From an uncultured Desulfobacterales bacterium (GTDB lineage Bacteria; Desulfobacterota; Desulfobacteria; Desulfobacterales; JAHEIW01), in assembly GCA_947259495.1 (NCBI GenBank), contig CAMYLV010000029.1, positions 1-36,296 on the forward strand: 36,296 bases of DNA, given 5' to 3'. Below the pieces are notes generated by a model that was not told the DNA's origin, ran no database searches, and saw only the letters and a program-made list of their open reading frames with translations. The position numbers and the translations under genes are program-made. Positions 8,775 through 29,005 of the stretch are shown piece by piece. How positions within the stretch are numbered: position 1 is the first letter of the stretch; the number at the start of each line of letters is the position of its first letter.

Positions 8775-10187
8775 ATGCACCGTTTTGAAATTTTGACCAA
8801 AACTCAGGTTGAGAAGGTTCATGCAACCTCATTGCGGATTCTGGAACAAATTGGATTGGATTTTGGCTATCCGCCGGCTCTGGCGGTGCTTAAAAAAGGG
8901 GGCGCAAAAGTCGACGGCCAGCGTGTCTTTTTCCAATCCAAGCTGGTCGAAGCACAAATTCAAAAAGCGCCCCGCCGCTTTACCCTGCATGCTCGCAACC
9001 CGCAAAACAATGTTGTGGTCGGCGGCGGCAACACGGTCTTTACCCCCGGTTACGGTGCTGCTTTTGTCACTGATCTTGAAAGCGGCAGGCGCAAAGCAAC
9101 TCTGAAAGACTTTGAAAACTTTGTCAAATTAACCGGTGCCAGCGCCAACCAGGATATTTTAAGCGGTACGGTCGTCGAACCCACCGATGTGCCCTATGAG
9201 ACCCGCCATGCCCATATGGCTTATACCGCCGTGAAATATTCGGATAAATGTTTCATGGGCAGCACCATGGGAGCCCGGGCCGCCAAAGAATGTATTCAAA
9301 TGGCGACTATCCTGTTCGGAAGTCGGGATCAAATTGAGTCAGCTCCTGGAATCATCGGTATCATTGGACCGCTGACACCCCTGAAATACGATGCCCGGAT
9401 GCTGGGGGCCCTGATGGAATATGCTGCAGCCGGTCAACCAGCGCTGATAACGTCATTGGCGATCGCCGGGGCAACAGGGCCGGTTACGCTGGCCGGAAAT
9501 CTGGCCCTCCAGAACGCTGAGGTTCTGGCTGGAATTGTACTGACCCAGCTGATACGCGAGGGCACGCCGGTAATCTTCGGTGGTGCATCTTCCAATGCCG
9601 AGATGCGCAACGGCACGTTGAGCATCGGCTCGCCCGAAATGGCCATCAATACTGCGGCGACGGCTCAGATGGCCCGTTATTACAAATTGCCGGCACGAGG
9701 CGGTGGGGCGGTTTGCGACGCCAAATTACCTGATGCCCAGGCTTCTTATGAGTCCATGATGAGCCTTTTAATGGCCCTGGTCTGCGGCGTCAATTTTGTG
9801 CTGCACAGTGCCGGCATCCTGGAATCCTTTAATTGCATGTCCTATGAAAAATTTATCATCGATGATGAAATGTGCGGGATGGTGAAAAGGATCCAGAGAG
9901 CAATTGAAGTCAATCCGGCTACCCTGGCTCTGGATGTTATCAAGGCGGTCGGGCCCGGGGGTCATTTTCTGGACAAAGACCACACCTTCGACCATTTTAG
10001 AACCGAATTTTATCAACCCCGCTTATCCAACCGTGACGACTTTGTAACCTGGCAGGCCGGCGGATCCCCCCAGAGCATGGGAACAGCCAATAAAAAGGTT
10101 AAAGAAATTTTGGCAACCTATGAAGCCCCGGAGCTGCCGGCCGATGTCGATAAGGATTTGCAAACGTTCATCGCAAAATTAGGATAG
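8775..10187 (+). CDS. MttB-family corrinoid-dependent methyltransferase (non-pyrrolysine), copy 1
   Basis: The 470-residue protein is a TIM-barrel member of the trimethylamine methyltransferase superfamily, which moves a methyl group from a methylated amine to Co(I) of a corrinoid protein. Family features are the N-terminal HATSLRILEQIGLDF helix, GSTMGARAAKECIQMA, GPLTPLKYDARML, IFGGASSNAEMRNGTLSIGS, the central CDAKLPDAQASYESM, and the C-terminal VGPGGHFLDKDHTFDHFR. The frame is continuous with no internal TAG, so it is not a pyrrolysine enzyme; characterised non-Pyl relatives act on betaines or carnitine. It is the only mttB on the plus strand, converges on the minus operon with a 40-base gap, and lacks the GCTD motif of the other three copies, which suggests a different substrate. 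The ribosome site is weak. Confidence 0.93.
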   Translation: MHRFEILTKTQVEKVHATSLRILEQIGLDFGYPPALAVLKKGGAKVDGQRVFFQSKLVEAQIQKAPRRFTLHARNPQNNVVVGGGNTVFTPGYGAAFVTDLESGRRKATLKDFENFVKLTGASANQDILSGTVVEPTDVPYETRHAHMAYTAVKYSDKCFMGSTMGARAAKECIQMATILFGSRDQIESAPGIIGIIGPLTPLKYDARMLGALMEYAAAGQPALITSLAIAGATGPVTLAGNLALQNAEVLAGIVLTQLIREGTPVIFGGASSNAEMRNGTLSIGSPEMAINTAATAQMARYYKLPARGGGAVCDAKLPDAQASYESMMSLLMALVCGVNFVLHSAGILESFNCMSYEKFIIDDEMCGMVKRIQRAIEVNPATLALDVIKAVGPGGHFLDKDHTFDHFRTEFYQPRLSNRDDFVTWQAGGSPQSMGTANKKVKEILATYEAPELPADVDKDLQTFIAKLG

Positions 10188-10227
10188 CCTCCCAAATGGG
10201 TTTCATGTGATCGGGATTTGATTGCGC

Positions 10228-11661
10228 TTATGCCCAGTTTGCTTGCATACGATCCAGCTCTTTGATGACATCCTCAGCCAGCGGTGCCGGCCGGTGCGCC
10301 ATGGCTTCTTTGGTGAGATCGCGCAGCCGCTCTTCAAAGCGTTTGCCGCCCATTTCTTTCCATTGATCATAAACAGCCCGTTCAAAAAGCTTTGAATACC
10401 TGACCTCGCGGAAATGCGCCATTGTGTGCTCTTCTTGCAGGTAGTGCCCGCCGGGTCCGACCCGATCGATCAAATCAATTGCCAGGGTTTCTTCCGTTAC
10501 CGGCAGCCCCTTCATGTATTGATTCACATTATGAAGGATTTCGTTAACCATCACCATAAACGCGGGCGATACCAGCGACCCGTGGTCCATCCAGCTGCTG
10601 CAGTCATGAACTAAGCCGGATCCAATGGCTGCGGAGCTGAGGCACTGAAAGGTCGCTTCGGCGGCCGCCTGGGGATCGCAGAACTTAGCATCGGTGCAGC
10701 CGGCTGTGCCAAAAAAAGGAAGTCGGTAGAATTGTGCCATCTGCGCCATGGCGCCGACCATCAGACTCATTTCAGGTGCGCCATAAGAAAAAATCGATGT
10801 TTGCATGTCCATTATGGTTGTAAAGGCGCCATAAATAAAGGGTGACCCCGGCCGGGCAATTTGGGCAAGGACCAACCCACTCAAGGATTCGGCACTTCCC
10901 TGAACAATTGTGCCGGCAAAGGTGGCCGGAGCGGAACCGCAGGCCTGGGGTGCCGGGAAATTGATCAACGGGATGCCGTGTTCGACGGTGAAAAGCATTT
11001 TATCCACAGCCGGATCATAATACTCCAGTGGTGAAATCGGCTCCGAATATTGAACAATCGTCGGCGCATTTTCGAAATTTTCTTTGCCCCCGCAAATCAG
11101 CAGGGCCATTTCGTAAATGTCGCGCTCGCTGTTGGCATCCTTGCAGCAAAAGACCAGCGGTTTTTCGCAATAGCTCAGCGCCTGTCGCACGATAACGCGG
11201 TCAGCGATGTCGGGCGGTTGATCGTCGGCCATACCGATGATCATGGACCAGTGAAAATTGGGCAGGGCATCGGCCAGGGTGGCCGTGATGCGGCAGTGCT
11301 CGCTGGTAAAACGCATGCGCTCATCGGTAATGGGATCCAAATAATCAATGCAGTCCAAACTGGGCCCGAACCAGGATTTGTCTTCTTCCAGAAAGACACA
11401 GCGGTCGCCGTTGCGATTTCCTAATGTGACGCGCGACGGCGCTTTGTGGATGGCATCCTCCACCAGCCAGGCCGGTATGCGGACCCGATCCCCTTCCACT
11501 CGGGCACCTGCCCCGTCCAGCATTTCCAAACCCCGCGGATGGGTCATCTTAACGCCGGTTCGCTCTAAAACTTCCAATGCAGCCATATGAATCTGTTTGA
11601 TTTGGTCTTCATTGATGACCTGAAGCTTCGGTTTAAAATAAAGCGGCGGCTGTTGCATCAT
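10228..11661 (-). CDS. MttB-family corrinoid-dependent methyltransferase (non-pyrrolysine), copy 2
   Basis: This 477-residue MttB homologue is the last gene of the minus-strand operon. Motifs include AALEVLERTGVKMTHPRGLE, EPISPLEYYDPAVDKMLF, IYGAFTTIMDMQTSIFSYG, FGTAGCTDAKFCDPQAAAEA and VGPGGHYLQEEHTMAHFR. There is no internal amber codon, so it falls in the non-Pyl group that includes MtgB, MtpB and MtcB; the exact substrate cannot be read. Its first ATG overlaps the stop of the MFS gene by four bases (ATGA at 11658-11661), and AAAGGAGGG lies just upstream inside that gene, so translation is probably coupled. Coupling to a transporter suggests that the imported compound is the methyl donor. 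Confidence 0.93.
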   Translation of the reverse strand: MMQQPPLYFKPKLQVINEDQIKQIHMAALEVLERTGVKMTHPRGLEMLDGAGARVEGDRVRIPAWLVEDAIHKAPSRVTLGNRNGDRCVFLEEDKSWFGPSLDCIDYLDPITDERMRFTSEHCRITATLADALPNFHWSMIIGMADDQPPDIADRVIVRQALSYCEKPLVFCCKDANSERDIYEMALLICGGKENFENAPTIVQYSEPISPLEYYDPAVDKMLFTVEHGIPLINFPAPQACGSAPATFAGTIVQGSAESLSGLVLAQIARPGSPFIYGAFTTIMDMQTSIFSYGAPEMSLMVGAMAQMAQFYRLPFFGTAGCTDAKFCDPQAAAEATFQCLSSAAIGSGLVHDCSSWMDHGSLVSPAFMVMVNEILHNVNQYMKGLPVTEETLAIDLIDRVGPGGHYLQEEHTMAHFREVRYSKLFERAVYDQWKEMGGKRFEERLRDLTKEAMAHRPAPLAEDVIKELDRMQANWA

Positions 11662-12911
11662 ATCTTTGCCCTCCTTTCAATTGGGTGAATCTCTTTTTCA
11701 CAAATTCGTAAACATAAAACTGTAGCGATAAGGGCCATGACCGCAAATGATAAAAAAACGGCGTTAAAGGATTGAAACATATCAGCGATCTTGCCTGAAA
11801 CCACGTTGGTAAAAATACCCGCCAGGCTGGTGAAAGTCGTTAGAAAGCCCATACCCGTGGCCGACAGTTTGCGCGATAGAATATCCGCAGGGTAGGTCGC
11901 CAGAAGTATATCGGGCATGATAATCATAAACCCGATTACGGTCAGCAATGCGATAGCCGTCGCAAGACTTATCCCGCTGGAAAGCAAAAACGTTGTCAGC
12001 GCCAGGGTCCCCAGCCCAATGAATAATAGCGGCTTGCGTCGGCCGCTGAAATAGTGGTCGGATACAAAACCGGCAACGGGAGACGCGAAAATTCCGGGGA
12101 TCAGCACAACGGCAGCAATCATGCTGGCGCGATCGATGGACAGGGCATAGTTTTCCGTTAAAAAAGTGGGGATCCACACCAGGCAACCGAACTGCACATA
12201 CACAAAGCAAAAATATACCAGCGCCACGGCCCATAGGGTTGGATGGGTCAACACCAGCCGGATGTTTGGTTCAGCAGGATTGCTCGAGATGTTTTCCGAC
12301 CGGGTGTCGTCATCAAAATCTGCAAGTCCTTTTTCGGAGGGGCTGTTTCGGACAACGAGCCAAAACACCAAGGTCACAGCTGCCAGCAAAGCGGGTGGAA
12401 CAATGAATGCGCTTTGCCATCCCAAATGATCGCCTAAATATCCGGAAAACCGAATTCCAAAGCTGCTTCCGGCACTGACACAGGTTGCAAAAAATCCGAT
12501 CGCTGTTGCCCGTCTTGCGCGCGGAAACCAGTTGACAACCAATTTAAGCGCGGAATTCCAGCCCATGGCCTGCCCCAGACCGTTAATCACCTGACCGACG
12601 GCGAGGATGCTAAAGATCGTCCCCTGACTGATAATCAGATTGCCGGCGATGGATATCAAAGCGCCAACGGTCAGGATTTTACGGGGCCCGAAGCGGTCTC
12701 CCAGATAACCCGACGGCAGCTGAAAGGCCGTATAGGCTACAAAGAACAAGGCCATCAGCCATCCGGCCCTGGCGTTCGAAATCGCCAGATCGGCTCGAAT
12801 GAGCGGCAAAACCGACGCATAATTAAACCGGCTGGCATAGTATAGCCCGAACAACAGCCACGTCAGAAATAAAACCTGACCGGCCGGCCCCTTTAAGTTG
12901 AAGCGATTCAT
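11658..12911 (-). CDS. MFS transporter, probably for the methylated substrate
   Basis: The 417-residue protein is a 12-helix major facilitator. The signature loop GYLGDRFGPRK lies between helices 2 and 3 (about residues 68-78) and the related loop GFVSDHYFSGRRKP lies in the second half (about 285-298). The N-terminal LLFGLYYASRFNYASVLPLI resembles the anion:cation symporter/GlpT-like branch more than classical betaine carriers (BCCT, ProP). It overlaps the HyuA-like gene by four bases (12908-12911) and the downstream mttB by four bases, so all three are translationally linked. Import of a betaine-like or carboxylated quaternary amine is an inference from context. Confidence 0.9.
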   Translation of the reverse strand: MNRFNLKGPAGQVLFLTWLLFGLYYASRFNYASVLPLIRADLAISNARAGWLMALFFVAYTAFQLPSGYLGDRFGPRKILTVGALISIAGNLIISQGTIFSILAVGQVINGLGQAMGWNSALKLVVNWFPRARRATAIGFFATCVSAGSSFGIRFSGYLGDHLGWQSAFIVPPALLAAVTLVFWLVVRNSPSEKGLADFDDDTRSENISSNPAEPNIRLVLTHPTLWAVALVYFCFVYVQFGCLVWIPTFLTENYALSIDRASMIAAVVLIPGIFASPVAGFVSDHYFSGRRKPLLFIGLGTLALTTFLLSSGISLATAIALLTVIGFMIIMPDILLATYPADILSRKLSATGMGFLTTFTSLAGIFTNVVSGKIADMFQSFNAVFLSFAVMALIATVLCLRICEKEIHPIERRAKI

Positions 12912-14917
12912 GAAGACGGGTTTCCCTGCACTTCGGACAATCTGGGGTTTCCAGCTGCGTGTGCCACGACTCTTTCCAGGCTGCCTTCCCTGTGCTTTTC
13001 GACTATGACCTGCGGCTCTGCGGCACCTGCCGCAACCGCACTTTTACGGGCAAGCCGGGCAACAATTTTTTCGGCATACCTGCAGGCATCATCAATTTCT
13101 AGAAAGCGTTTGTTGCTTCCCTCGATTTGCACCACATATGCCCGGGCGCCTTCGTTTTCCCGGGGATAGACGAGAGCCTCTTTGGCCACTATCACCGAAC
13201 CGGCCACCGCGCCCACCGCATTGGCAACCGGCGCATGATCCGGCAAAATAAAACGGGTGCCCAGGGACGCGGCCACTTTTTTAATAAATATTTGAGCGGG
13301 TGCACCGATACCGATAATGGGATAGCGGCTGGCTATGGTGACCGCCAGATACGGATTTTTTCCGGTGAGGGCTTCATTGACCAACCAGCGCCCCCAGGGG
13401 CCGTCAATATGTTCCGGCAATTGATCTTCACTGATCTGGCGTGCCAAAAAAACGATGGCTTCTTTGACGATGTCAAGGCCAATTGAATCAAGCGTCTGCT
13501 CCACGAAGATCGCCTGATTTTTTGCGTGCAGGGCACATGCATAGTCCACCGCATGCCGGGCCGCTGCGACACACCAGGTATCCATCTGGCCGGTTACATG
13601 CAGAAGATCGGTGGGCGTCAGGGCTGCGTGTTCGATGATTCCCTGATGGATCAGGGAATCCGCATTCAGTTGTAAGGCGTGATACACATCCATTTTTTTG
13701 AGCAGCTGCGTTAGACTCAGCGGGCCATCTTCAATCAGGGCGATCAACTGATGATGGTTTGTATTTTCGACCGCCCTTTTTTGAGAATCGATTTTTTTGT
13801 TTAAAAACCAGTATTCGATATCGGTCGCGCGCCGATCGAGCTCGCCCTTTTTTTCCAGGTGACAAATTTCTTTTTCAACTCGAGGGAAACGAGCGGCTAA
13901 ACGCGCTAAAGGCACCACACGGTGCGGACCCACCTGAACATTTGCCCCGACTTTGAAGGTAATCCGGCTGTCGCAGCCAATGGCGGTGGTTCGAATACGG
14001 GCGGCCTTGACCGCCGTCTCGAAGGCGCCCACCCGGGCGCCGTCTTCTGAAATGGTCATTTTAAAATTGTCCATCAGGGCCATATCGGTGGTGGTGCCGC
14101 CCACATCGATGACAAGTGCGCTGCCGTGTCCCGAAAGGAAGCGCCCCCCAATCGCACTGGCGGCCGGCCCTGATAGAACAGTTTCCACCGGTTTATAAAC
14201 GGCATCCCTGTAAGGCATCAGGGATCCATCGCCTTTGACAATCATCAGCGGTGCCCGGATTCCCAGGGCCACCAGAGATTTACGCACTGCTTCGATAAAC
14301 TCCTGCATGACGGCCACCAGCGAGGCATTCAAGCAGGCCGTGGTGGCGCGCTTGATGGAATCAAGCTTTGTGGAAAGCTGGTTTCCCAGAACCACCGGCA
14401 ACGCACACATTTTGCGGACCATCGCCAGGGCACGCTCTTCGTGGGAAGGGTTAAGGGGACTGAAATAACCGGAAATCGCCAGGGCATCCACTTCTTGCCG
14501 GTGTCGCGCCACCCAGGTCTCGATGCTTTTCAGATCGAGGGGTTCTTTTTCCAAACCCTGGGTGGTGTGACCGCCATTAAAGTGTGCGAATTGGCGGGTT
14601 GGAAATTTAGATGCGAGATTATAGGTGGCGATCAGCTCTCGGTCGTAGCCGATCAGCAGCAGGCCAACTTTGCGTGTTTTGCCTTCAGCGATTGAATTTG
14701 TTGCCAGGGTGCTGGAAATTCCCACCAGTCTGATCCTGGCGGGTTTCGCGATGCAGAGTTCTTTGAGGGCTTTGCTAATTCCGCGGGCGAGGTTTTCCCG
14801 GGTGGTCAGCGTCTTGCTGAAAGCCATAACCTTGCGGGATCGGTAGTCCAAAAGGACACCATCCGTATACGTGCCTCCCGTGTCGATCCCGACGACATAT
14901 TCGCCTGATGTGCGCAT
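12908..14917 (-). CDS. HyuA-like ASKHA protein (hydantoinase A/oxoprolinase family) in an mttB operon
   Basis: The protein is 669 residues from the chosen ATG at 14917. An alternative GTG at 15007 would add 30 residues, but the family normally begins a few residues before the phosphate-binding loop GIDTGGTYTDGVLLD, here at about residue 9. The second nucleotide-binding segment SGPAASAIGGRF...LVIDVGGTTTDMALM lies around residues 230-270. Other HyuA features are LGNQLSTKLDSIKRATTACL and IGIGAPAQIFIKKVAASLG. No HyuB partner and no Cys-rich ferredoxin domain are present, so it is not a normal 5-oxoprolinase or a RamA-type activase. Family members use ATP on cyclic amides. Its place between mttB and transporter genes suggests substrate ring opening or an ATP-dependent step of methyl transfer; both are speculative. 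Confidence 0.85.
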   Translation of the reverse strand: MRTSGEYVVGIDTGGTYTDGVLLDYRSRKVMAFSKTLTTRENLARGISKALKELCIAKPARIRLVGISSTLATNSIAEGKTRKVGLLLIGYDRELIATYNLASKFPTRQFAHFNGGHTTQGLEKEPLDLKSIETWVARHRQEVDALAISGYFSPLNPSHEERALAMVRKMCALPVVLGNQLSTKLDSIKRATTACLNASLVAVMQEFIEAVRKSLVALGIRAPLMIVKGDGSLMPYRDAVYKPVETVLSGPAASAIGGRFLSGHGSALVIDVGGTTTDMALMDNFKMTISEDGARVGAFETAVKAARIRTTAIGCDSRITFKVGANVQVGPHRVVPLARLAARFPRVEKEICHLEKKGELDRRATDIEYWFLNKKIDSQKRAVENTNHHQLIALIEDGPLSLTQLLKKMDVYHALQLNADSLIHQGIIEHAALTPTDLLHVTGQMDTWCVAAARHAVDYACALHAKNQAIFVEQTLDSIGLDIVKEAIVFLARQISEDQLPEHIDGPWGRWLVNEALTGKNPYLAVTIASRYPIIGIGAPAQIFIKKVAASLGTRFILPDHAPVANAVGAVAGSVIVAKEALVYPRENEGARAYVVQIEGSNKRFLEIDDACRYAEKIVARLARKSAVAAGAAEPQVIVEKHREGSLERVVAHAAGNPRLSEVQGNPSS

Positions 14918-15089
14918 AGGTTTACATTTAATTGAGGGGTCGGGGAGTTTTTTTGTCAAACTAACCGATCTGTCTATCCAAAAAGAAAGACCCTCCGTCG
15001 GACGCACTCAAGGATATCGAGCCGGTTGGGTCGTGCGCCGATCCTTCCGGCTCGTCAACGGTGACTGGCTAACGTCAAAGGTCTAATGG

Positions 15090-16580
15090 CTAACTTGCTT
15101 TCTTTTCAGCCGCAGCCTTTTTGGCCTCGCGTGCTTCCGCCGCTTGCAGGATTTCTCCAATTTTCTTCTGTGCGTCTGGCGGCACTTTGGATATGGGTCC
15201 CTCAAAGTTGGCGATAATGTCGCGGGCCTTCTCGATAACCCGGTCTCGCATGGTGGTCTGGCCCTGGGCCGCCCAGTCTTCATAATTCTGGCGGTCCATG
15301 AGGGTGGGCATCCAGAGGGCGGCCGCGTGCTTTTTGGTGTGATCTCTGTCAAAATAATCGCCGCCCGGTCCCGCCTGGCAAATTTCTTCTACGGCCAGGG
15401 TTTCTTCGTTGACTTCGATGCCCTTTGCGACCACATGACTCATGCCGATTTGTTCATCCGCCATGACCAGCTGGAGCACGGAGCCGGTCATGCCCGATTC
15501 GAAGTATCCGACGTCGTGAATGAAATTAGCGCCGCTGAGCATGGCCGAATGCACCGAAGTGGCTGCTTCGATAGCACCCTGGACATCCAGGGTCTTGGTG
15601 TCGGTACAGCCGGCTGTGGAGAACATGGGCAGTCCCGCATATTGCGCCATCTCGGTGAGGGCTGCGCTCATCAGGCTCAGCTCCGGCGACCCATAGGCGT
15701 AAACCGAATATTGCATGTCCATGATTGACTGGACACCGCCCATAATAACGCAAGTGCCGGGATTGAGCAGCTGGGCCACCACCACGCCGAGCATTGACTC
15801 CGAGAAGGCACACACCAACTGACCGGCGTGGGTGGCCGGAACGGTAGCACCACCGATACAGCAGGGGGTATAGACCTGGGGGATGCCGTGTTTGGCGTTG
15901 TACATGAGTTTGTCCATGGCGTGAAAGTCGCTTAACAGCGGTGAGATCGGTTCGCCGTAAAAGACGTAATTCGGGCATTTCTTAAACGCATCTTCACCAC
16001 CGGCCATGGCGATGGCAATTTTGTGAATGTCGCTGCAGGTATCGCGGGTGTATGACCAGGATAAAATGGGTTTGGTGGTGTTCTGAATCATCTCCGCAAA
16101 CTCATACACATCCGCCAAAGAGATGGTCACATCACTGATGGTGCCCAGAGACTGCACAAAACCGATGTTCGGAAGGGCTTCACAGACACGGGCCACCACG
16201 GAAGCATCATTTCTGATGTACTTGCGCCGCTCCAGCGTGTCAGGATCGGTATAGTTCGGCGGTGTGGGCCCGGGGCCGAATAGGACCTGGTTTTTTTCGA
16301 TACGGGTTTTGCGGGTACCGTCCCAGCTTTGCACGATCGTCACCGGCGGAACAGTCGCCAGGGCATCCACAACCAGATTTTGAGGAATCCTGACAGTTAT
16401 GTCATCTACCAGGGCGCCATGCTTTTTAAGCAGCTCGCGGGCTTCCTCATGATGAAGATGCACACCTGTGTTGCGAAGTGTTTCAATCATTCCTTCAAAA
16501 ATTCTTTGTTTCTGATCCGGTGCTAAGATGCAAAACCGTGCTGTCTGATTGATTGTCTGATTGGTTCGTGTGCTCATCAT
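15090..16580 (-). CDS. MttB-family corrinoid-dependent methyltransferase (non-pyrrolysine), copy 3
   Basis: The 496-residue protein has MttB barrel motifs: HLHHEEARELLKKHGAL near the N-terminus, FGPGPTPPNYTDPDTLERRK, GEPISPLLSDFHAMDKLMY, IMGGVQSIMDMQYSVYAYGS, FSTAGCTDTKTLDVQGAIEA and AGPGGDYFDRDHTKKHAAAL. A Lys/Ala-rich tail (EAREAKKAAAEKKAS) extends beyond its paralogues. There is no internal stop or amber codon. Its ATG overlaps the stop of the upstream mttB copy 4 by four bases (16577-16580), so the two are translationally coupled and may act on the same or successive substrates. The ribosome site is GGAGG inside the end of copy 4. Confidence 0.93.
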   Translation of the reverse strand: MMSTRTNQTINQTARFCILAPDQKQRIFEGMIETLRNTGVHLHHEEARELLKKHGALVDDITVRIPQNLVVDALATVPPVTIVQSWDGTRKTRIEKNQVLFGPGPTPPNYTDPDTLERRKYIRNDASVVARVCEALPNIGFVQSLGTISDVTISLADVYEFAEMIQNTTKPILSWSYTRDTCSDIHKIAIAMAGGEDAFKKCPNYVFYGEPISPLLSDFHAMDKLMYNAKHGIPQVYTPCCIGGATVPATHAGQLVCAFSESMLGVVVAQLLNPGTCVIMGGVQSIMDMQYSVYAYGSPELSLMSAALTEMAQYAGLPMFSTAGCTDTKTLDVQGAIEAATSVHSAMLSGANFIHDVGYFESGMTGSVLQLVMADEQIGMSHVVAKGIEVNEETLAVEEICQAGPGGDYFDRDHTKKHAAALWMPTLMDRQNYEDWAAQGQTTMRDRVIEKARDIIANFEGPISKVPPDAQKKIGEILQAAEAREAKKAAAEKKAS

Positions 16581-18052
16581 CCAACCTCCTTTTTGTCCGC
16601 CAGGCTGATGATCTTTTTCATCTCCTGAATTAACTTTTCGTCCAGCGGTTCAGGCTGGTGGGCTTCCAATAGGCGGTCAACTTCGGGTTCGAGCCGATCC
16701 TGGTAAGTTTTGCTCCCGGCGCTTGTCCAGGTTTCAAAGTTTGAGCGATCAATAATGGTCGGCTGGAACCATTGCCTAAAGTGGTCAAAGGTGTGGTCAT
16801 GACTCAAGAATTCACCGCCCGGTCCGACTTCGTTGAGAATGTCCAGCGCCAGGCTTTCATCCGTGACTTCAATGCCCTTGGCAATTTGTTTGACCATTGC
16901 GATGATTTCGTCACACATGACCAGACTTGCGAGCGATGCGGTCAGCCCGCCGTTGAGGCTGCCCACATGGTGGATCAGGTTGGTGCCGGCCATGAGGCTG
17001 TTGTAGATGCTCATCACAGATTCTGAGGCCGCCTGTTCGTCGACAAGCTTCGAATCCGTGCACCCGCCGGGTGAGGAACTCAAAAGCCCCAGCCATTTAT
17101 AAATTTCGCTAATTGCCGCCGAAGCCAAATGGAGCTCGGGTGATCCGTAATATAGATTTTTCTTTTCTTTTTCCATAACCGTCTGAACGCCGCCTAAAAT
17201 CAGGGGCATCCCCGGCTTTTGCAGGTAGCCCAGCACGACGGCCAGAAGGCTGTCGGCCAGGGTCTGGACCAGTATCCCTGCGATGGTGGCCGGCGCGGTC
17301 ACGCCCAATCCGGCACATGGCGAGTATAAAGCGGGTATGCCTTTATCCGTAGCAAAAAATAGCCGGTCTACCATTTCTTTGCTGTACACCAACGGTGATT
17401 CCGACTTGATATAGGTTGCAAACAGAGGGTTTAAGCGAAACTCTTTTTCTCCACCGCGCATCAGACAGGCCATCTCCCACTGGTCCTTTAATCCGCCCGC
17501 ATCGACGCTGGTGACGATCAACGGCTTGGCGCAGTTTTTGATCATGGCCATAAATTGATGCCGATCATACGTTTTGGTGTTAGGGGCGTCTGACACCACA
17601 CCGTATGACATACAAAAATCAAAGCGAGGCAGCGAATCCACGATTTTAGCGGCGGCTTCCACATCAGCAAATGTGCATTTGCGACGCTCTCCGATCTTGA
17701 GGTCGTACACAAAAGTGGCATCGGCCCCGCTTCCAAAAGCCACTTCGTTTCTTTGGAGTTTGATCGCACGTTTTCCGTTTCTGTCCGTCAGGGCAGCTTT
17801 GGAAGGGCAACTCTGGAGCGCGCGCTCTACCAGTGAGGTGGGAACACGGACACGATCATTCTCTGTGACGACCGCATTACTGTTTTTCAACAGCTCCAGT
17901 GCCGCCGGGTGACATATGCGGGCCCCGGAAACTTCCAGAACGTCCAGGGCCGCAAAATAAATCTGTTCAATTTGGTCGTCGGTCAGGATTTGAAACATCG
18001 TTGTACCATAGGCCTGTTGATTCATTTTGATGAGCATTGTTTTTTCTAACAT
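16577..18052 (-). CDS. MttB-family corrinoid-dependent methyltransferase (non-pyrrolysine), copy 4
   Basis: The 491-residue protein directly follows the corrinoid protein gene, the usual order for a cognate pair. Motifs are IYFAALDVLEVSGARICHPA, FGSGADATFVYDLKIGERRK, MSYGVVSDAPNTKTYDRHQF, ILGGVQTVMEKEKKNLYYGS, SSPGGCTDSKLVDEQAASES and VGPGGEFLSHDHTFDHFR. The start at 18052 is supported by AGGAGAGA 6-8 bases before the ATG; in-frame Met codons at residues 6, 10 and 19 are alternatives. No amber codon interrupts the frame. It is the best candidate for the primary demethylase, because it is nearest the corrinoid gene and second in the operon. Confidence 0.93.
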   Translation of the reverse strand: MLEKTMLIKMNQQAYGTTMFQILTDDQIEQIYFAALDVLEVSGARICHPAALELLKNSNAVVTENDRVRVPTSLVERALQSCPSKAALTDRNGKRAIKLQRNEVAFGSGADATFVYDLKIGERRKCTFADVEAAAKIVDSLPRFDFCMSYGVVSDAPNTKTYDRHQFMAMIKNCAKPLIVTSVDAGGLKDQWEMACLMRGGEKEFRLNPLFATYIKSESPLVYSKEMVDRLFFATDKGIPALYSPCAGLGVTAPATIAGILVQTLADSLLAVVLGYLQKPGMPLILGGVQTVMEKEKKNLYYGSPELHLASAAISEIYKWLGLLSSSPGGCTDSKLVDEQAASESVMSIYNSLMAGTNLIHHVGSLNGGLTASLASLVMCDEIIAMVKQIAKGIEVTDESLALDILNEVGPGGEFLSHDHTFDHFRQWFQPTIIDRSNFETWTSAGSKTYQDRLEPEVDRLLEAHQPEPLDEKLIQEMKKIISLADKKEVG

Positions 18053-18134
18053 GGGTCTCTCTCCTATTTTGTTTTTTAAAACAGCGGCCCGCGGCTATGG
18101 GTACCCCAATTTTTTTTTAAAAAACCAGGCGAAT

Positions 18135-18773
18135 TTACAAACCCAGCAGCTCTTTGCCGGTATCAACAGCGCTGGCGGCATTTGAGGCATAGGCGTCGGC
18201 GCCAATTTCTTTGGCAAACTCGGCCGTCACGGGAGCCCCGCCAATCATAATTTTGATCTGGTCCCTGATGCCCGCCTCTTTGATGGCATTGATGGTTTCG
18301 CCCATCTTTGGCATAGTGGTGGTTAAAAGCGCCGACATACCAAAGAGCTCTGCTTTGTGATCCTTCAACGCATCAACAAACGCTTGGGGCTCCTGATCAA
18401 TGCCTAAATCAATAACCTTAAAGCCGGCACCTTCGAACATCATGCCCACCAGGTTCTTTCCGATGTCATGCAAGTCGCCCTTTACGGTACCGATCACTAA
18501 TGTGCCGGCCGTCTTCACACCGGATGCTACCAGCAGGGGCCGCAAGATTTCCATGGCGCCATGCATGCACTTGGCACACCGCAACACCTCCGGAATAAAC
18601 ATTTCGTTGGCTTTAAAGCGCTGTCCCACTACATCCATTCCGGCCAGCAGTCCCTGCTCCAAAATATCCTGGGGCGATAGGCCCCCTTCCAAGGCTTCTT
18701 TTGTGAGACTTGAAACTTCATCCACTTTACCGGCGATCAACGACTCTGCCATTGTTCCGAATAATTCACTCAT
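18135..18773 (-). CDS. Methyltransferase corrinoid protein (MtbC/MttC family)
   Basis: The 212-residue protein binds the cobamide that receives methyl groups from MttB enzymes. Residues 1-85 form the four-helix cap of methionine-synthase type, and residues 88-212 form the Rossmann B12-binding domain. The lower cobalt ligand motif DxHxxG is D100-L-H102-D-I-G105 (GDLHDIGKNLV), followed by the GGAPV segment near residue 176. The ATG at 18773 is chosen because AAAGGAGG lies 8 bases upstream; an upstream in-frame Met would add 14 unlikely residues. It leads the minus operon, 82 bases before mttB copy 4. It is the only corrinoid protein here for four MttB paralogues, so sharing is likely. Confidence 0.95.
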   Translation of the reverse strand: MSELFGTMAESLIAGKVDEVSSLTKEALEGGLSPQDILEQGLLAGMDVVGQRFKANEMFIPEVLRCAKCMHGAMEILRPLLVASGVKTAGTLVIGTVKGDLHDIGKNLVGMMFEGAGFKVIDLGIDQEPQAFVDALKDHKAELFGMSALLTTTMPKMGETINAIKEAGIRDQIKIMIGGAPVTAEFAKEIGADAYASNAASAVDTGKELLGL

Positions 18774-18920: not shown

Positions 18921-19817
18921 CTACTCTTTATACAGGTTAAACAGGATATCATTTTCATAATAAGCCTGCTCCAGCTTTTCCTGATGCGCTTTGAGCCGGC
19001 CGCCATTGCGGCTCGCCAGCTCCAGGACGAGATAGTTTACGATACACGAAATTGTGGTTGGATTTCCGATAAAAGGAATGTTTTTTGACGACGCGATCAG
19101 CGACAGGTGGGCAAACTGAGTCAACGGACAAAGCGCGCTATCCGCAATCACGAGAAGGGTCTGGCCGAGTCGGCGGACCATTTTGCCCAATCGAATCAGT
19201 TCATTCGGATAGCGCGTCGTAGCAATGATGGTCACCAGGCTCTCCGGCGATGCGTTTGTCAGCCAGTCGATCGCCGTGCTATCGCTGCCTTTTAGTATGT
19301 GGACATTCGAGCGAATCTTAGTCAGCGACCAACCCAGGTAGTAAGCAAATGTAAAGGAAAGACGGGATCCAATAACATAGATGGAATTGCTTGTTTCAAG
19401 AAAATCAACCATTTTTTGAAGTGCATCCATATCGACGGTTTCAAGAAACAGTTTCAAGTTTTCCATCTCTTCAAACACAACACGGCTGAGGCGATCTGCT
19501 CCCGGCTGATGCATGCCCGATAGGTCCGTACGGTCCAGCATCGTTAGCTCCGTATCCACAAAATCCCTTAAAGCCTGTTGAAATGCACCATAGCCTTTAT
19601 ATCCCAGTTGGCTGACGAAACGAACCACCGTTGCTTCGCTGACCTCGCACGCTTGAGCCAGCTCCTTTGTTGTCATAAAGACGGCTTTGCGGGGATTGTT
19701 GAGGATATAGTTGCCAAGGATCCGGGCTTTGGGCGTCAACGAATGGTGTTGTTCGACGATTCCCTGCATCGTTGGATGGGATGATTGATCTCGCATCATA
19801 TTTCTTAGACTAAACAT
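18921..19817 (-). CDS. RpiR-family transcriptional regulator (HTH_6 plus SIS domain)
   Basis: The protein is up to 298 residues. Residues 18-95 form the RpiR winged HTH (MTTKELAQACEVSEATVVRF then VSQLGYKGYGAFQQAL), and residues 120-260 form an SIS sugar-isomerase fold (IYVIGSRLSFTFAYYLG), which in this family binds a phosphosugar or similar effector. It lies between the minus-strand methyltransferase operon and the divergent sox genes, so it is the natural candidate regulator of both. No good ribosome site precedes the ATG at 19817; Met codons at 19799 or 19796 could also be used. RpiR proteins mostly control sugar pathways, so an amine-linked effector would be unusual. Repressor versus activator is not decidable. 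Confidence 0.9.
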   Translation of the reverse strand: MFSLRNMMRDQSSHPTMQGIVEQHHSLTPKARILGNYILNNPRKAVFMTTKELAQACEVSEATVVRFVSQLGYKGYGAFQQALRDFVDTELTMLDRTDLSGMHQPGADRLSRVVFEEMENLKLFLETVDMDALQKMVDFLETSNSIYVIGSRLSFTFAYYLGWSLTKIRSNVHILKGSDSTAIDWLTNASPESLVTIIATTRYPNELIRLGKMVRRLGQTLLVIADSALCPLTQFAHLSLIASSKNIPFIGNPTTISCIVNYLVLELASRNGGRLKAHQEKLEQAYYENDILFNLYKE

Positions 19818-20491: not shown

Positions 20492-21715
20492 ATGTTTGGA
20501 AGGGTTAAACCCCTATGGGGGGAAAAGTCGTCGCTCAAGTCAAACTATGATGCTGTTATCATCGGCGGTGGGCTTCATGGGCTGGCTGCGGCCTATTTTT
20601 TGGCGCGGGATCACAACATGCGTAATGTGGCTGTGCTTGAAAAACGGTTCATTGGCTTTGGCGGATCAGGGCGCAATACCGCCATCGTGCGGGCCAACCA
20701 GCGCACCCAGGAAAATGTTCCGCTTTACAAGGAAGCACTCGCGCTGTGGCCCGTATTGACCAAAGATTTGGACTACAACCTGATGTTCTTTAATTGCGGG
20801 AATTTGAACCTGATGCACAGTGAGGCCGCCATGAATGCGGCGCGGATGAATGTTGCCACCGCACAGTTTCACGGGGTGGAAAGTCATTTGATTGATGCCA
20901 AACAATGCAAAGAACTGGTTCCGGCCCTTAATATATTGGCGGACATCACCTATCCGATTTTTGGTGCGATGTATCATCCACCGGGCGGAATTTTACGCCA
21001 TGATGCCATCGTCTGGGGTCTGGCAAAGGGGGCCGCCGAACATGGCGTGCATGTTCACCAGCAAACCGAAGTGACCGGCATCGGTGTAGAAAACGGAAAA
21101 ATCGTTTCCGTTGAAACGGACAAAGGCCAGATTAAAACCCCGCGGGTGCTGAATGCCGCCGGTGGCTATTCTGCTGCGCTTTCCTATCAAATGCTGGGAA
21201 TAAAATTGCCGATCAGCGTATTAACCATTCAGGCCATGGTTACCCAGCCGCTGAAACCGCTTTTAAACCATGTGGTTTCGTCCGGCGCTTATCATGCGTA
21301 TGCAAACCAGACCCTTAAAGGTGAAATCGCCACCGGCGCTCACATGGATTCCTGGCCCAATTACACGACGCAAACCACCGCTTATTATATCAAACATCAG
21401 GCCGAGGCGCTTGCAGAGATGCTGCCCTGTCTCAGGGGAGTCAAATTTATGCGCCACTGGGGCGGCCTGGCGGATATGACCCCGGACATGGCGCCCATCA
21501 TGGACGGCAACGATTCCATTGAGGGCTATTTTATGGATTGCGGCTGGGGATATTTCGGCTTTAAATCCTGTGCTGCCAGTGGGAAATATATGGCGCAATT
21601 TATGGCCAGCGGGAATTGCCCCAATATGCTCAAGCCCTTCAGCCTGCGTCGCTTTGAGCAGCACCGGCTGATGGGGGAAACCGCAGCGGTCGTCAATTAT
21701 ACGCCCGACAACTAG
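20492..21715 (+). CDS. soxB: Heterotetrameric sarcosine oxidase beta subunit (SoxB)
   Basis: The 407-residue DAO-type flavoprotein has the FAD dinucleotide motif VIIGGGLHGLAAAYFLA at about residues 22-38. The segment LRHDAIVWGLAKGA carries His170, which by alignment with known SoxB (RHDA motif) is the histidine that binds FMN covalently. The C-terminal DCGWGYFGFKSCAASGKYMA is also typical. SoxB oxidises the N-methyl group of sarcosine or a related secondary/tertiary amine; the methylene passes through the complex to tetrahydrofolate on SoxA. AGAGGT precedes the ATG. The other subunit genes follow after an unusual 123-base palindromic gap. In this context the electron acceptor may be ETF rather than oxygen (inference). 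Confidence 0.92.
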   Translation: MFGRVKPLWGEKSSLKSNYDAVIIGGGLHGLAAAYFLARDHNMRNVAVLEKRFIGFGGSGRNTAIVRANQRTQENVPLYKEALALWPVLTKDLDYNLMFFNCGNLNLMHSEAAMNAARMNVATAQFHGVESHLIDAKQCKELVPALNILADITYPIFGAMYHPPGGILRHDAIVWGLAKGAAEHGVHVHQQTEVTGIGVENGKIVSVETDKGQIKTPRVLNAAGGYSAALSYQMLGIKLPISVLTIQAMVTQPLKPLLNHVVSSGAYHAYANQTLKGEIATGAHMDSWPNYTTQTTAYYIKHQAEALAEMLPCLRGVKFMRHWGGLADMTPDMAPIMDGNDSIEGYFMDCGWGYFGFKSCAASGKYMAQFMASGNCPNMLKPFSLRRFEQHRLMGETAAVVNYTPDN

Positions 21716-21838: not shown

Positions 21839-22099
21839 ATGGCATTAACCCTTACCTGTCCCGTGTGCGGCAAGCGCAACGGTTATGAATTCCGCTACGG
21901 CGGAGAAGAAAAGGGGCCCCGGCCGGATGAAGCAGGTATTACGCCCCGGAGCTGGTGCGAATATGTGCACATGAACCAATGTGTGGCCGGCATTCAGAAA
22001 GAATGGTGGTGCCATAAAGATGGCTGTGGTGTCTGGTTTACAACGCACCGCGACACAACTTGTAATCTTGAGGTGGATAAACCGGAGGCGCAATCATGA
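21839..22099 (+). CDS. soxD: Sarcosine oxidase delta subunit (SoxD)
   Basis: This 86-residue zinc-binding subunit has Cys7 and Cys10 in CPVCGKR and His59 and Cys63 in CHKDGC, the same pattern as the zinc site of characterised SoxD. EFRYGGE, the W-x3-Y region and GVWFTTHRDT are further family hallmarks. It has no catalytic role but holds the heterotetramer together. AATGGAGG precedes the ATG, and its stop overlaps the soxA start by four bases (22096-22099), so the two are translationally coupled. Confidence 0.93.
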   Translation: MALTLTCPVCGKRNGYEFRYGGEEKGPRPDEAGITPRSWCEYVHMNQCVAGIQKEWWCHKDGCGVWFTTHRDTTCNLEVDKPEAQS

Positions 22100-25014
22100 A
22101 AAGGCTGGAAAAACTGTCCACCCTGCGGATTAATCCTGCGAAAACGCTTCATTTTAAGTATAAGAACAAAAATCTTAAGGGGCTGAGTGGCGATACGGTT
22201 GCGACCGCCCTTTATGCCAGCGGTATTCGCATTTTTGGGCGCAGCTTGAAATATCATCGTCCGCGGGGTCTTTACAGCCTGGATGGCGAAAGCAGCAATA
22301 CCTGCATGCAGGTCAACGGGATTCCCAACGTATGTGCGGAGACCACTCTGCTGGCAGATGGCATGGAGGTTAAAGCGCAAAATGTGGCGGGTTCACCGGA
22401 AACGGATCTGAAGGGGTTCATGGACAAACTGGACTGGGCGATGCCGGCGGGATTTTATTATCGCACCCTGCACAAACCGGCCCGCATATGGCCCATTGCG
22501 CTAAAACAGGTGCGCAAGGCTGCCGGGCTGGGAAAAATTTCGGCCGAATTTCAAATGCCCGGCAAATATGATGAAATCTATCCCAAAGCGGATGTGTGCG
22601 TCATCGGAGGGGGGCCGGCGGGCATGTCGGCGGCCCTGGCCGCCGCCGAAAACGGGCTACGGGTGATCCTCCTGGAAACCCGTCCGTGGTTGGGCGGTTT
22701 TTTTGACTACCGTACGGCGCAAAATGGCGCCGGGCTATCGCTATCCCAAAGCGTCCGGCAGGCGGCGGAGCAGCTTGAACAAAACTCCAATGTTCGCATC
22801 TTTACGCAAACCCCGGTGGTCGGCGTTTATAACAACAATCTGGTCACCGCATTTCAGAAAGGGTGCGAGACCGACTATTTTGATGAACGCTATCTTGAAA
22901 TCCGGGCCACCAGTGTCGTGGTGGCCACGGGCTGCAGCGAGCGCCCGCTGCTTTTTGAAAACAACGAGCGACCCGGTGTCATGCAGATCGGCTGTGCGCA
23001 TCGGCTGGCCCAAACCTATGGTTTGCTTCCCGGTAAACAGGCCGTTTTCAGCATCGGTCATGATTTAGGTCTGGAAGCAGCGCTGGATCTGTTTGACCTG
23101 GGCCTTGAGGTCTTATGTGTGGCCGACATCCGGGAAGATGGACAAGACCCCGCACTGATAGAAGGGCTCCAGCAGCGCAACATCCCATTTTTAAGGGGGT
23201 GGGTCGCAACACGCGCTCATGGCAATAAGACGCTTCACAAAGTCACCCTGGCCACTATCCCGGGGACCCTCCGGAAGGATTTTTCCTGCGACCTTCTGGT
23301 GGCCTCAGCCGGGATGACGCCACTGACCGGCCCGCTTTCATTGGCCCAGGCAAAGCTGGCCTTTGAACCCTACACCGGTTTTTTTATCCCCCGGCAGCTG
23401 CCGGCCAAAATACAGGTTGCCGGAAGGTTGCTGGGACTCAATCACCCTGCGACCATTGAGGCCTCGGGTCGGCTCGCCGGCACTTTAGCTGCCGGCGACT
23501 GCGGTGTATCCGTCGAAAGCCGGTTGAAAGAAGCCCGCGAAAAACTTAATCAATTACCGGGTCCGGACCAGGGCAGTAAATTGGTAACAGCCCCCGTTCA
23601 GGGCCGCAAAACCTTTATCTGCTTTGACGAAGATACGACGGTAAAAAACGTGAAACAGGCCCTGGCAAAGGGTTTTGATGCCACCGAACTCATCAAGCGC
23701 TTTACCGCCGCCGGCACCGGACCGGGACAGGGGGGTATCCCCGGGCACAATCTTCCGTTGTTTGTGGCGCAATACCATGGCGATATCAAAGCGACGGCCA
23801 TGCCGACCACCGTACGGGCACCTCTGGTTCCCACGTATATTGCCACCTATGCCGGCAGCAACCACGATATGTGCAAGCGCACGCCGGTTCACGATTCCCA
23901 GAAAGCCGCCGGCGGTGTCATCCGGCGAATTGGTGTCTGGAAACGGGCACGCTATTTTTCCAAGGATTTCAGCTGTCGCGCGGAAATCGAAAATGTCCGT
24001 AAGAACGTCGGCCTGCTGGATGCCTCTACGCTCGGCAAATTTAGGCTCTGGGGGCCCGATGCATTAAACGCCCTGCAGCGGGTTTATGCCAGCGACATGT
24101 CCAGGATTACCAACGGCAAAGTTAAATATTCGGCCATGTGCAACGATGACGCCTGTATTATCGATGACGGCGTGGTGGTCAAAAGGGCTGAAAACGATTA
24201 TTATTTTACTACCTCCACCGCCCGGGCCGGTGCCACGGTGGAATGGATCCGGTATCACACCCGCTATGACGGCTGGAATTTCCACATGGTCAATCTCACT
24301 GACGCCTTCGGGGTGATTAACATGGCGGGCCCCAATGCACGCAAGGTGCTTGCAAAAGTCACGGATGCCGATGTTTCCGATGACGCCTTTCCGTATGCCG
24401 CGTATCGTGAATTTATGATTAAAGATACCATACCGGTAAGGTCTATGCGTCTGGGGTTTGTGGGTGAGCTTTCCTTCGAGCTGCATGTTCCCTCATCTTA
24501 CATGCAGGCCCTGTGGGATCTGTTGACCGAAGCCGGGAAAGAATTTGGCATCCGCCATTTCGGCCTGGAAGCCCAAAATGTGTTGCGCATGGAAAAAGCC
24601 CACCTGATTATCGGTTCCGAATCCGAGCAGCGCACCACGCTTCACGATGTCGGGCTCGGGTTTCTATGGAGCCGCGACAAATCAGAGGAAAAAACCGTGG
24701 GGGCCGTGGCCCTCAGGCAGACCGAAAACCAGGAGGCGCGTTTGAAGCTGGTGGGATTTAAGATGGAGGATCCTTCCCGGGTCCCGAAAGATGGATCCAT
24801 CATCGTGGACAACCGCATCAGAGGATATGTGTGTATTGCGCGCCACAGCTTTGCGTTGCAAGAACCCGTCGGGCTTGCGCTGGTGGATGCACCACTGGCC
24901 GGGGAAGGCACGCGCTTGCAAATTTATGAAGATGAATGCAACGGTCAGCACCTTTATGCAACGGTGGTGCCCACCCCCTTTTACGACCCTGAAGGTAAAC
25001 GAATACGGATGTGA
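22096..25014 (+). CDS. soxA: Sarcosine oxidase alpha subunit (SoxA) with GcvT-type folate domain
   Basis: The 972-residue protein has the full SoxA layout. An N-terminal ferredoxin-like domain without cluster cysteines carries GRSLKYHRPRGLYSLDGES. A pyridine-nucleotide-disulfide-type domain follows, with VCVIGGGPAGMSAALAA near residues 165-185. The C-terminal GcvT domain (about 590-972; VGLLDASTLGKFRLWGPDAL, GVINMAGPNARKVL, FGLEAQNVLRMEKAHLIIGS) binds tetrahydrofolate. It accepts the methylene from SoxB and gives 5,10-methylene-THF, which can enter the Wood-Ljungdahl methyl branch of an anaerobe. It overlaps soxD by four bases and is 7 bases from soxG. The length agrees with known SoxA (about 965 residues). 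Confidence 0.95.
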   Translation: MKRLEKLSTLRINPAKTLHFKYKNKNLKGLSGDTVATALYASGIRIFGRSLKYHRPRGLYSLDGESSNTCMQVNGIPNVCAETTLLADGMEVKAQNVAGSPETDLKGFMDKLDWAMPAGFYYRTLHKPARIWPIALKQVRKAAGLGKISAEFQMPGKYDEIYPKADVCVIGGGPAGMSAALAAAENGLRVILLETRPWLGGFFDYRTAQNGAGLSLSQSVRQAAEQLEQNSNVRIFTQTPVVGVYNNNLVTAFQKGCETDYFDERYLEIRATSVVVATGCSERPLLFENNERPGVMQIGCAHRLAQTYGLLPGKQAVFSIGHDLGLEAALDLFDLGLEVLCVADIREDGQDPALIEGLQQRNIPFLRGWVATRAHGNKTLHKVTLATIPGTLRKDFSCDLLVASAGMTPLTGPLSLAQAKLAFEPYTGFFIPRQLPAKIQVAGRLLGLNHPATIEASGRLAGTLAAGDCGVSVESRLKEAREKLNQLPGPDQGSKLVTAPVQGRKTFICFDEDTTVKNVKQALAKGFDATELIKRFTAAGTGPGQGGIPGHNLPLFVAQYHGDIKATAMPTTVRAPLVPTYIATYAGSNHDMCKRTPVHDSQKAAGGVIRRIGVWKRARYFSKDFSCRAEIENVRKNVGLLDASTLGKFRLWGPDALNALQRVYASDMSRITNGKVKYSAMCNDDACIIDDGVVVKRAENDYYFTTSTARAGATVEWIRYHTRYDGWNFHMVNLTDAFGVINMAGPNARKVLAKVTDADVSDDAFPYAAYREFMIKDTIPVRSMRLGFVGELSFELHVPSSYMQALWDLLTEAGKEFGIRHFGLEAQNVLRMEKAHLIIGSESEQRTTLHDVGLGFLWSRDKSEEKTVGAVALRQTENQEARLKLVGFKMEDPSRVPKDGSIIVDNRIRGYVCIARHSFALQEPVGLALVDAPLAGEGTRLQIYEDECNGQHLYATVVPTPFYDPEGKRIRM

Positions 25015-25021
25015 GGTAAAA

Positions 25022-25689: not shown

Positions 25690-26142
25690 ATGAACTTAGA
25701 AGACAAGATACGAACCGTGCTCGATGAACAGAAAATATCTTACGAAGTGTTTGAGCACGAGCCGGTTTATACCAATCCGACCATGGCAAAAGCGTTAAAT
25801 GTCAGCGAGTCTGAAACGGTAAAATCGCTGGTTTTAAAGACCAAAGAAGGCCGCATGATCGTTTTGGTTTTACCGGGTAACAAGAAAGTAGACTGGAAAC
25901 ACGCCGCCGCCGGTGCAAAAACAAAGAAAGTTTCATTTGCCAAACCCGAAGAGGTCAGTCAGGCGGTGGGTTGCGAGGTGGGGTGTGTACCGCCTTTTGG
26001 ACACCTGACGGCATTGCCGATTTACATGGATCCGGACTTGGTCAAAAAGAATTTTGTATACTTCAACCCGGGCGCTCACGATAAATCATTTAAAATAAAA
26101 GCCTGGGACCTAAAAAAGCTTTGCAATCCATCCCTAATTTGA
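25690..26142 (+). CDS. YbaK/ProX-type aminoacyl-tRNA deacylase domain protein
   Basis: The 150-residue single-domain protein is of the YbaK/EbsC/ProX editing family, which hydrolyses mischarged aminoacyl-tRNA in trans. Features are YEVFEHEPVYTNPTMAKALN, ETVKSLVLKTKEGRMIVLVL with the conserved Lys near residue 46, and CEVGCVPPFGHLTALPIYMD. AGAGGATG lies before the ATG. It follows soxG by 35 bases and may be read from the same transcript. A link to amine catabolism is not obvious; editing of tRNA charged with a methylated amino acid is only a thought. Confidence 0.9.
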   Translation: MNLEDKIRTVLDEQKISYEVFEHEPVYTNPTMAKALNVSESETVKSLVLKTKEGRMIVLVLPGNKKVDWKHAAAGAKTKKVSFAKPEEVSQAVGCEVGCVPPFGHLTALPIYMDPDLVKKNFVYFNPGAHDKSFKIKAWDLKKLCNPSLI

Positions 26143-28820: not shown

Positions 28821-28825
28821 AACCT

Positions 28826-28960: not shown

Positions 28961-29005
28961 GGATCCTGGTACAAGACACCAGCGTTGCTGAAAAAGAAAT
29001 CGATC

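Follow-up and report, generated by a model that had tools for sequence, protein, structure and literature searches.

The stretch of DNA analyzed here, called the window, comprises the 36,296 nucleotides of contig CAMYLV010000029.1 (C29) from assembly GCA_947259495.1 of an uncultured Desulfobacterales bacterium, whose genome amounts to 4.4 Mb in 69 contigs. It holds four genes of the MttB methyltransferase family, named A to D, close to one corrinoid protein gene, COR; contigs, loci and genomes used for comparison are given by C, L and G numbers. The genes concerned are the following:

8775-10187, plus strand: MttB A, 470 aa, an MtgB-type methyltransferase by homology (PF06253, 562.6 bits)
10228-11661, minus strand: MttB B, 477 aa, a non-pyrrolysine MttB with Cys at the pyrrolysine column (PF06253, 308.9 bits)
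11658-12911, minus strand: a major facilitator superfamily (MFS) transporter (PF07690, 208 bits)
12908-15007, minus strand: HYD, a protein of the hydantoinase A / acetone carboxylase beta kind with a predicted ASKHA fold (PF05378 and PF01968)
15090-16580, minus strand: MttB C, 496 aa, one half of the C/D pair, with Cys240, Cys325 and His355 (PF06253, 289.9 bits)
16577-18052, minus strand: MttB D, 491 aa, the other half, with Cys246, Cys331 and His361 (PF06253, 306.3 bits)
18135-18773, minus strand (open reading frame to 18815): COR, the corrinoid protein (PF02310, 98.8 bits; PF02607, 77.3 bits)

The four MttB proteins match PF06253 along their whole length with 290-563 bits, the Pfam gathering score being 25 bits, and no stop codon lies inside any of them: the initial annotation, which had described four MttB-family genes devoid of in-frame TAG near one corrinoid gene, is confirmed in this respect. 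The pyrrolysine MttB model TIGR02369, which calls for a TAG and for more than 525 bits, gives 398.7 (A), 363.9 (B), 351.2 (C) and 376.7 bits (D). The motifs reported earlier, GCTDAK in B, GCTDTK in C, GCTDSK in D and AVCDAK in A, were found as described, with the refinement that the CDAK cysteine of A differs from that of GCTD: the latter aligns with the pyrrolysine column of M. barkeri MttB, where A has Val. The motif DxHxxG is typical of B12-binding corrinoid proteins; COR carries it as DLHDIGK and, having both PF02310 and PF02607 domains, is a B12-binding methyltransferase corrinoid protein, probably starting at the internal Met at 18773. Its best NCBIfam model is MtgC NF047996 (233.9 bits, cut-off 370), followed by NF047995 (189.3 bits, cut-off 310), both scores falling short of MtgC membership. 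The minus-strand genes, in the order COR-D-C-HYD-MFS-B, look like one operon because of 4-nt overlaps, evident from the coordinates, at D/C, HYD/MFS and MFS/B; A is convergent to them.

The tree proposed by the initial annotation was built from 83 MttBs, including MtgB but not MtpB, MtcB or MtyB, and places A, B, C and D in four clades, with pairwise identities of 28-35%, rather than in one recent duplication clade. A groups with MtgB and 4yyc (support 98/88), is 52% identical to D. hafniense MtgB and scores 540.7 bits against the glycine betaine methyltransferase 9yce_A; B, C and D score about 188-212 bits against 9yce/2qne and are 28, 28 and 29% identical to MtgB. Docking predicts four betaine contacts in MtgB, Y94, N199, R309 and H345 (PMC6855144): A has Y, G, R and H there, three of the four, while B, C and D keep only H345 and lie outside the MtgB clade. 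A is an MtgB-type methyltransferase, to which glycine betaine is assigned as substrate by homology; the betaine precedent invoked at first fits A and is a poor one for C and D.

B falls in a 7-row clade (100/100) with its congener orthologues (100/96). Two congeners have orthologues 82-83% identical to B beside COR and MFS, with a 67-68% identical MFS copy between COR and B; in G395 and G396 the locus reads MTII-COR-MFS-B, where MTII is methyltransferase II, and lacks C, D and HYD. B is part of a corrinoid-MFS-B module, which occurs without C/D in two congeners. The COR-B locus of two congeners devoid of C/D includes an 805-aa protein with FAD and GcvT domains, of which the window's genome has no locus-specific orthologue (best match 38%); an association between absence of C/D and presence of a dimethylglycine dehydrogenase, based on two congeners, is at most suggestive.

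The C/D pair is the new part of the locus. In the 83-MttB tree the C clade (17 rows, 100/100) and the D clade (23 rows, 100/98) are sisters (89/83) and show mirrored subgroups. When 242 genomes of the order were searched for D, 36 matches were listed, of which the 14 lowest (37-42% identity) were left out, apart from the genome's own copy on C51, which falls outside clade D; the 23 D rows comprise the 20 loci of the best order matches, together with L062, L096 and the window itself. In 20 of the 23, C adjoins D or lies no more than two genes from it; the remaining three (L062, L101, L102) stop at a contig end. In the three congeners searched, no D was found at E <= 1e-100.

A named set of 80 loci was classified with hidden Markov models (HMMs) built here, and a D row was taken as clear if its margin was at least 100 bits (56 rows). 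Of these 56 rows, 51 have C no farther than 3.5 kb away; in the remaining five, the contig ends after 0-849 bases on the side where C should lie. Clear D rows come from Desulfobacterales and other Desulfobacterota, Bacteroidota, Balneolales, Opitutales, Lentisphaerae, Phycisphaeraceae, Hydrogenedentota, Spirochaetota and Chloroflexi, the nearest named relatives (77-78%) being in Desulfobacterales and Desulfosarcina metagenome-assembled genomes. The 24 weaker rows, with margins below 100 bits and not counted as clear, have a C-type neighbour in 10 cases and none in 14. Trees and gene neighbourhoods show that C and D are an ancient pair, travelling with a corrinoid protein and often with HYD. 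The congeners' COR clusters with its counterparts from the window's genome and from two D-bearing relatives, within the COR clade of the type I loci defined below; the choice between gain of C/D in the window's genome and loss in the congeners therefore leans towards loss.

The active site of MttB is lined by Pyl334, Met249 and Tyr364 (PMC9842639). Both C and D have Cys at the Pyl334 column, Cys at the Met249 column and His at the Tyr364 column. In the first set all three residues are found in 14/14 C rows, and Cys334 and His in 20/20 D rows, with Cys249 in 19 of the 20. The named set has both Cys in 55/55 C and 63/63 D rows, and His in all but one C row, which is cut short; its D loci were fetched partly with a pattern containing the Pyl-column Cys, so that Cys334 is biased in D. 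That pattern selected neither the C rows nor the Met249-column Cys, although the classifying HMMs were built on pattern-fetched rows. Columns 249 and 334 are the only ones with Cys in at least 60% of rows in both clades, and the triad is absent from all 77 other MttBs in the joint alignment, some of which have gaps at its columns. B has Cys at the pyrrolysine column and mostly Ala or Gly at 249; A has Val and Leu, respectively. From these columns alone we infer a putative metal site, possibly for zinc, in C and D.

The initial annotation had started from the premise that one methyltransferase is usually paired with one corrinoid protein. This is too narrow: in Eubacterium limosum MtpB, MtcB and MtyB all methylate MtqC (PMC8604678), and a cluster of 'Candidatus Formimonas warabiya' DCMF, treated below, combines three MttBs with two corrinoid proteins (PMC9768040). 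The annotation's proposal that several substrates feed one carrier is plausible in the light of this precedent, with the reservation that the four enzymes are not equivalent. The same precedent, and the distribution of A-D over four clades with A resembling MtgB, would also suit four independent quaternary-amine methyltransferases, each with its own betaine and all methylating COR. We consider this unlikely: separate substrates would not require the pairing of C with D, interrupted in clear rows only at contig ends, and C and D have a common triad and lack the predicted contacts Y94, N199 and R309. A co-inherited C/D pair agrees better with the multi-enzyme demethylase suggested at first than four independent betaine enzymes do.

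C/D loci come in two layouts. Type I is COR-D-C-HYD, often with RACo, DUF1638 and MTII; type II is MTII-COR-C-COR-DUF1638-D-HYD, with an A-type gene upstream in some loci. By gene order the window is type I. Counting clear rows, 28 of 38 D-C loci and 9 of 12 C-COR-D loci have HYD no more than 8 kb away. Of the 12 C-COR-D loci, 9 carry two corrinoid genes; a second COR match occurs in 7 of the 38 D-C loci, and L138, the one checked, has upstream a full-length MetH that contains a B12 domain itself. A quick tree of 100 corrinoid domains splits the type II CORs into two groups (support 90 and 99), one preceding C and the other lying between C and D; the window COR falls in the type I group (support 96).

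A second C/D-like MttB pair was noticed at L118 (7176-10097), L119 (8726-11776) and L120 (9346-12278), with no corrinoid gene in the fetched flanks; the genomes concerned (G598, G134, G556) hold a COR-D-C locus too. Here C is devoid of the 249 Cys and D of Cys, Lys and His, and because of the loss of the triad this D may be non-catalytic. Persistence of a pair whose D has lost the motif, together with the pairing, the mirrored trees and the 4-nt C/D overlap, could mean that C and D join in a single hetero-oligomeric methyltransferase, in which one of the two may play a structural part; this seems to us improbable, given that the two corrinoid genes of most clear C-COR-D loci, lying in separate groups of the COR tree, suggest two reactions, and that C and D both keep the full triad.

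The AlphaFold2 model of HYD has a predicted local distance difference test score (pLDDT) of 87.1, and its best fold match is acetone carboxylase beta (5svc_B, Z 25.1, 3.9 A over 515 of 699 residues). Matches over about 500 residues, with Z of 19-25, comprise acetone carboxylase beta, acetophenone carboxylase, caprolactamase and N-methylhydantoinase; rows after the hydantoinase/carboxylase families start at Z 16.5, and single-domain ASKHA activators reach about 15-16. By its model, the fold of HYD is that of hydantoinase A / acetone carboxylase beta. Residues of two motifs, which we take to be phosphate-binding, are invariant across a 50-row alignment. Neither the RACo C-terminal domain PF14574 nor an Fe-S domain was found in HYD, which gives only hydantoinase/MutL-type matches, and the genome's five PF14574 matches are all on contigs other than C29. 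RACo occupies the slot of HYD in G546, but HYD as a plain replacement of RACo is weakened by the presence of both in 15 of the 80 named loci and by the best fold match. HYD is part of the module, and ATP-driven substrate activation appears as likely a role for it as corrinoid activation. A single-protein HYD search of the genome contigs gave no relative; relatives came from a phylum search. Eighteen loci with distant HYD relatives (about 31-37%) were also seen, nine with corrinoid, RACo, MttB or MTII genes in the fetched flanks (L044, L064, L066, L067, L068, L069, L071, L074, L080) and nine with none.

The two types of loci differ in their glycine-derivative context. A sarcosine/dimethylglycine N-methyltransferase-like (SDMT-like) gene flanks 25 of 39 type I and 0 of 16 type II loci, the former figure being a lower bound, as many flanks end early, and counted in the 80-locus named set alone, as some loci are in both collections; the Fisher p of 8e-6 serves as a guide only, since the loci are not independent. 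Five copies tested score 362-413 bits against NF041675, whose cut-off is 550. A survey of 51 genomes, covering only 45 of the 80 named loci, found none reaching this cut-off; above a line of 150 bits, set by us, SDMT-like genes are present in 27 of 31 type I genomes (the G635 match, 162 bits, is partial) and in 0 of 14 type II genomes. Glycine/sarcosine N-methyltransferase (GSMT, NF051855 over cut-off) is found in 8 of 31 type I and 0 of 14 type II genomes; all eight are among the 27, leaving 19 SDMT-like genomes without GSMT over cut-off, an absence which may in part be due to assembly loss. G633 holds a short 49-bit GSMT end piece, maybe a real fragment. SDMT and GSMT matches in the window's genome and five order relatives are all below 60 bits.

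The flanks of type I loci also contain MetK, MetH, MetF and SahH, which are missing from all type II flanks. In Bacteroidota loci, three of the four MetH checked hold only homocysteine and activation domains and would depend on B12 and folate modules supplied by other proteins, that of L138 being full length. Such short MetH genes, lacking folate and B12 modules, stand beside COR in L136 (6161-8299), L137 (1840-3951) and L139 (4958-7045); from their domain content they are probably split methionine synthases borrowing COR and MTII. Transfer of a methyl group from methyl-tetrahydrofolate to an amine should be downhill. A literature search, judged from its listings, brought up no corrinoid route to sarcosine or glycine betaine. 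Type I looks anabolic, type II and the window catabolic, with glycine derivatives common to both. The Cys/Cys/His set of C and D recalls zinc-dependent methanol and thiol methyltransferases, but that C and D are metal-dependent O- or S-methyl methyltransferases unrelated to glycine derivatives seems very improbable, with SDMT-like, SahH, MetK, MetF and MetH genes in type I clusters and an MtgB-type gene in some type II clusters and, as described, in that of DCMF.

At the genome level, PF06253 gives 12 matches corresponding to 11 genes, one gene being matched in two pieces: this copy (C17, 49741-51134, L021) has its pieces in different open frames and looks frame-shifted or mis-assembled. PF02607 gives four matches, on C29, C17, C66 and C5. 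The initial annotation had considered further corrinoid genes just outside the window for each MttB copy; this whole-genome search yields one match on C29. Two of the four, on C29 and C17, adjoin MttB genes, and the C66 copy lies beside a RACo gene. Because the PF02607 search finds none on C33, C43 and C51, which carry three, one and one MttB genes, most MttBs of the genome must, if they depend on a corrinoid protein at all, obtain it from another locus. A candidate MTII, a PF00809 gene on C43, is 72-81% identical to the MTII in the corrinoid loci of three congeners. A CODH/ACS (carbon monoxide dehydrogenase/acetyl-CoA synthase) cluster is probable on C27, judging from gene sizes, RACo and a pterin-binding match. 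On C66 (L026) the corrinoid protein adjoins RACo and DUF6951 genes, and a similar RACo/DUF6951 set is found on C57 (L030); these sets are a second kind of corrinoid locus in the window's genome. MttB genes with one in-frame TAG, likely pyrrolysine, were seen in G396 (C347, 55311-56723), G397 (C165, C117, C281) and G400 (several), that is in congeners and an order relative, as against 0 of 11 MttBs in the window's genome.

On the RpiR side of the operon, other genes follow:

18921-19817, minus strand: RpiR/SIS-family regulator (PF01418 and PF01380)
20492-21715, plus strand: SoxB-like FAD oxidoreductase (DAO, 221 bits; TIGR01373 soxB, 388 bits, below the cut-off of 529)
22096-25654, plus strand: SoxA-like protein with GcvT folate domain, and an overlapping downstream open reading frame
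28053-31980, plus strand: electron transfer flavoprotein (ETF) beta, ETF alpha and a CCG/4Fe-4S protein (Pfam ETF, ETF_alpha, CCG, Fer4)

The SoxA-like protein scores 693.6 bits with TIGR01372 soxA, below the cut-off of 1164, and 222.5 bits with PF01571 (GcvT); the overlapping frame gives a weak GcvT score of 19.1 bits, below cut-off. The RpiR/SIS protein, found in a 73-86% identical copy at the same locus in four relatives, is a probable regulator of the minus-strand operon; the Sox, GcvT, ETF and Fe-S genes come next, on the other strand. The SoxB-like gene is 89-90% identical in two congeners. The ETF, CCG and 4Fe-4S genes are a possible electron acceptor chain for the flavoproteins, and the MFS transporter possibly takes up the substrate. 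A YbaK-type aminoacyl-tRNA editing domain protein at 25690-26142 has relatives (62-84%) near the C/D loci L096, L108, L109, L110 and L111.

We tentatively favour a reading in which A demethylates glycine betaine and C and D handle dimethylglycine and sarcosine, with one carrier. A would move the first methyl of glycine betaine to COR, leaving dimethylglycine; C and D would act on the non-quaternary N-methylglycines, dimethylglycine and sarcosine, through their Cys-Cys-His site, perhaps with zinc, where MttB has pyrrolysine. COR would serve C and D, and probably B and A as well, the MTII encoded on C43 would pass the methyl to tetrahydrofolate, and the Sox and ETF genes of the window would finish the conversion of sarcosine to glycine.

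Several observations weigh against this assignment. Dimethylglycine and sarcosine could be handled oxidatively by way of the Sox and ETF genes, in which case C/D would be redundant for that purpose, and the SDMT-like gene marking type I loci was not found in the window's genome (best match 47 bits). The D of L117 has Arg at the Met249 column, the triad is lost in the L118-L120 pair, and a structure model of D from a 10-row alignment (pLDDT 46.6) offers no active-site geometry behind the metal site. Among border relatives of D, L160 and L168 keep both Cys with no C nearby in full flanks, as does L166, with only 1.4 kb of flank on one side. The likeness to the DCMF and Sporomusa clusters was judged from gene order and lengths only. 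Finally, the MtgB-type genes of Sporomusa ovata An4 have been proposed to demethylate dimethylglycine too (PMC6778437), and the DCMF authors name a different cluster for dimethylglycine as well, leaving open which enzymes act on it (PMC9768040).

A broader proposal, which we regard as rather doubtful, is that C and D are pyrrolysine-free corrinoid methyltransferases that act reversibly on non-quaternary N-methylglycines, at a Cys-Cys-His site that may hold zinc. Here and in DCMF-like organisms they would strip dimethylglycine and sarcosine. In hypersaline anaerobes belonging to several phyla the module would work in the opposite direction: it would methylate glycine with methyl-tetrahydrofolate as donor, and glycine betaine synthesis would begin with it instead of with the S-adenosylmethionine (SAM)-dependent glycine/sarcosine N-methyltransferase. 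With a named gene pair and two cysteines open to testing, pyrrolysine-free dimethylglycine demethylation becomes a question for a simple assay; should the pair also run in reverse, it would provide energy-limited halophilic anaerobes with a glycine betaine route spending fewer SAM. A blanket annotation of MttB genes as trimethylamine or betaine methyltransferases may be wrong for a widespread subgroup.

Among known systems, MtgB/MtgC/MtgA of D. hafniense resembles the window in A, of the same clade as MtgB, and in COR, whose best model is MtgC; it differs in that B, C and D are distant from MtgB, C/D have the Cys-Cys-His set and COR remains below the MtgC cut-offs. In Ruegeria pomeroyi (MtgB/MtgC/MtgD) a corrinoid protein is common to betaine demethylation and methionine synthesis (PMC12478193), a situation resembled, by description, by the three type I C/D loci with the short MetH beside COR; the window has no such MetH there. 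The E. limosum system likewise features several MttB paralogues acting on one corrinoid protein (PMC8604678), but its genes lie in separate clusters and its substrates are quaternary, and a tandem MttB pair is not among the features given in the part of that source at our disposal.

A further parallel is the glycine betaine cluster of DCMF (Ga0180325_114734-114742), syntenic halves of which occur in Sporomusa ovata and Frackibacter (PMC9768040). Its order is corrinoid protein (210 aa), methyltransferase I (485), corrinoid protein (210), methyltransferase I (488), a 668-aa protein called N-methylhydantoinase A/oxoprolinase, MTII (265), MtgB (471) and two transporters, and all of its proteins reached a higher abundance with glycine betaine than with dichloromethane (PMC9768040); the organism uses dimethylglycine, and with H2 sarcosine as well (PMC8163858). 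As described there, the cluster differs from the window in its two corrinoid proteins, the window having one, together with MFS and B, and no MTII within its cluster. By order and length it resembles the type II C/D loci, with its three MttBs (485, 488 and 471 aa), corrinoid protein, HydA-like 668-aa protein and MTII.

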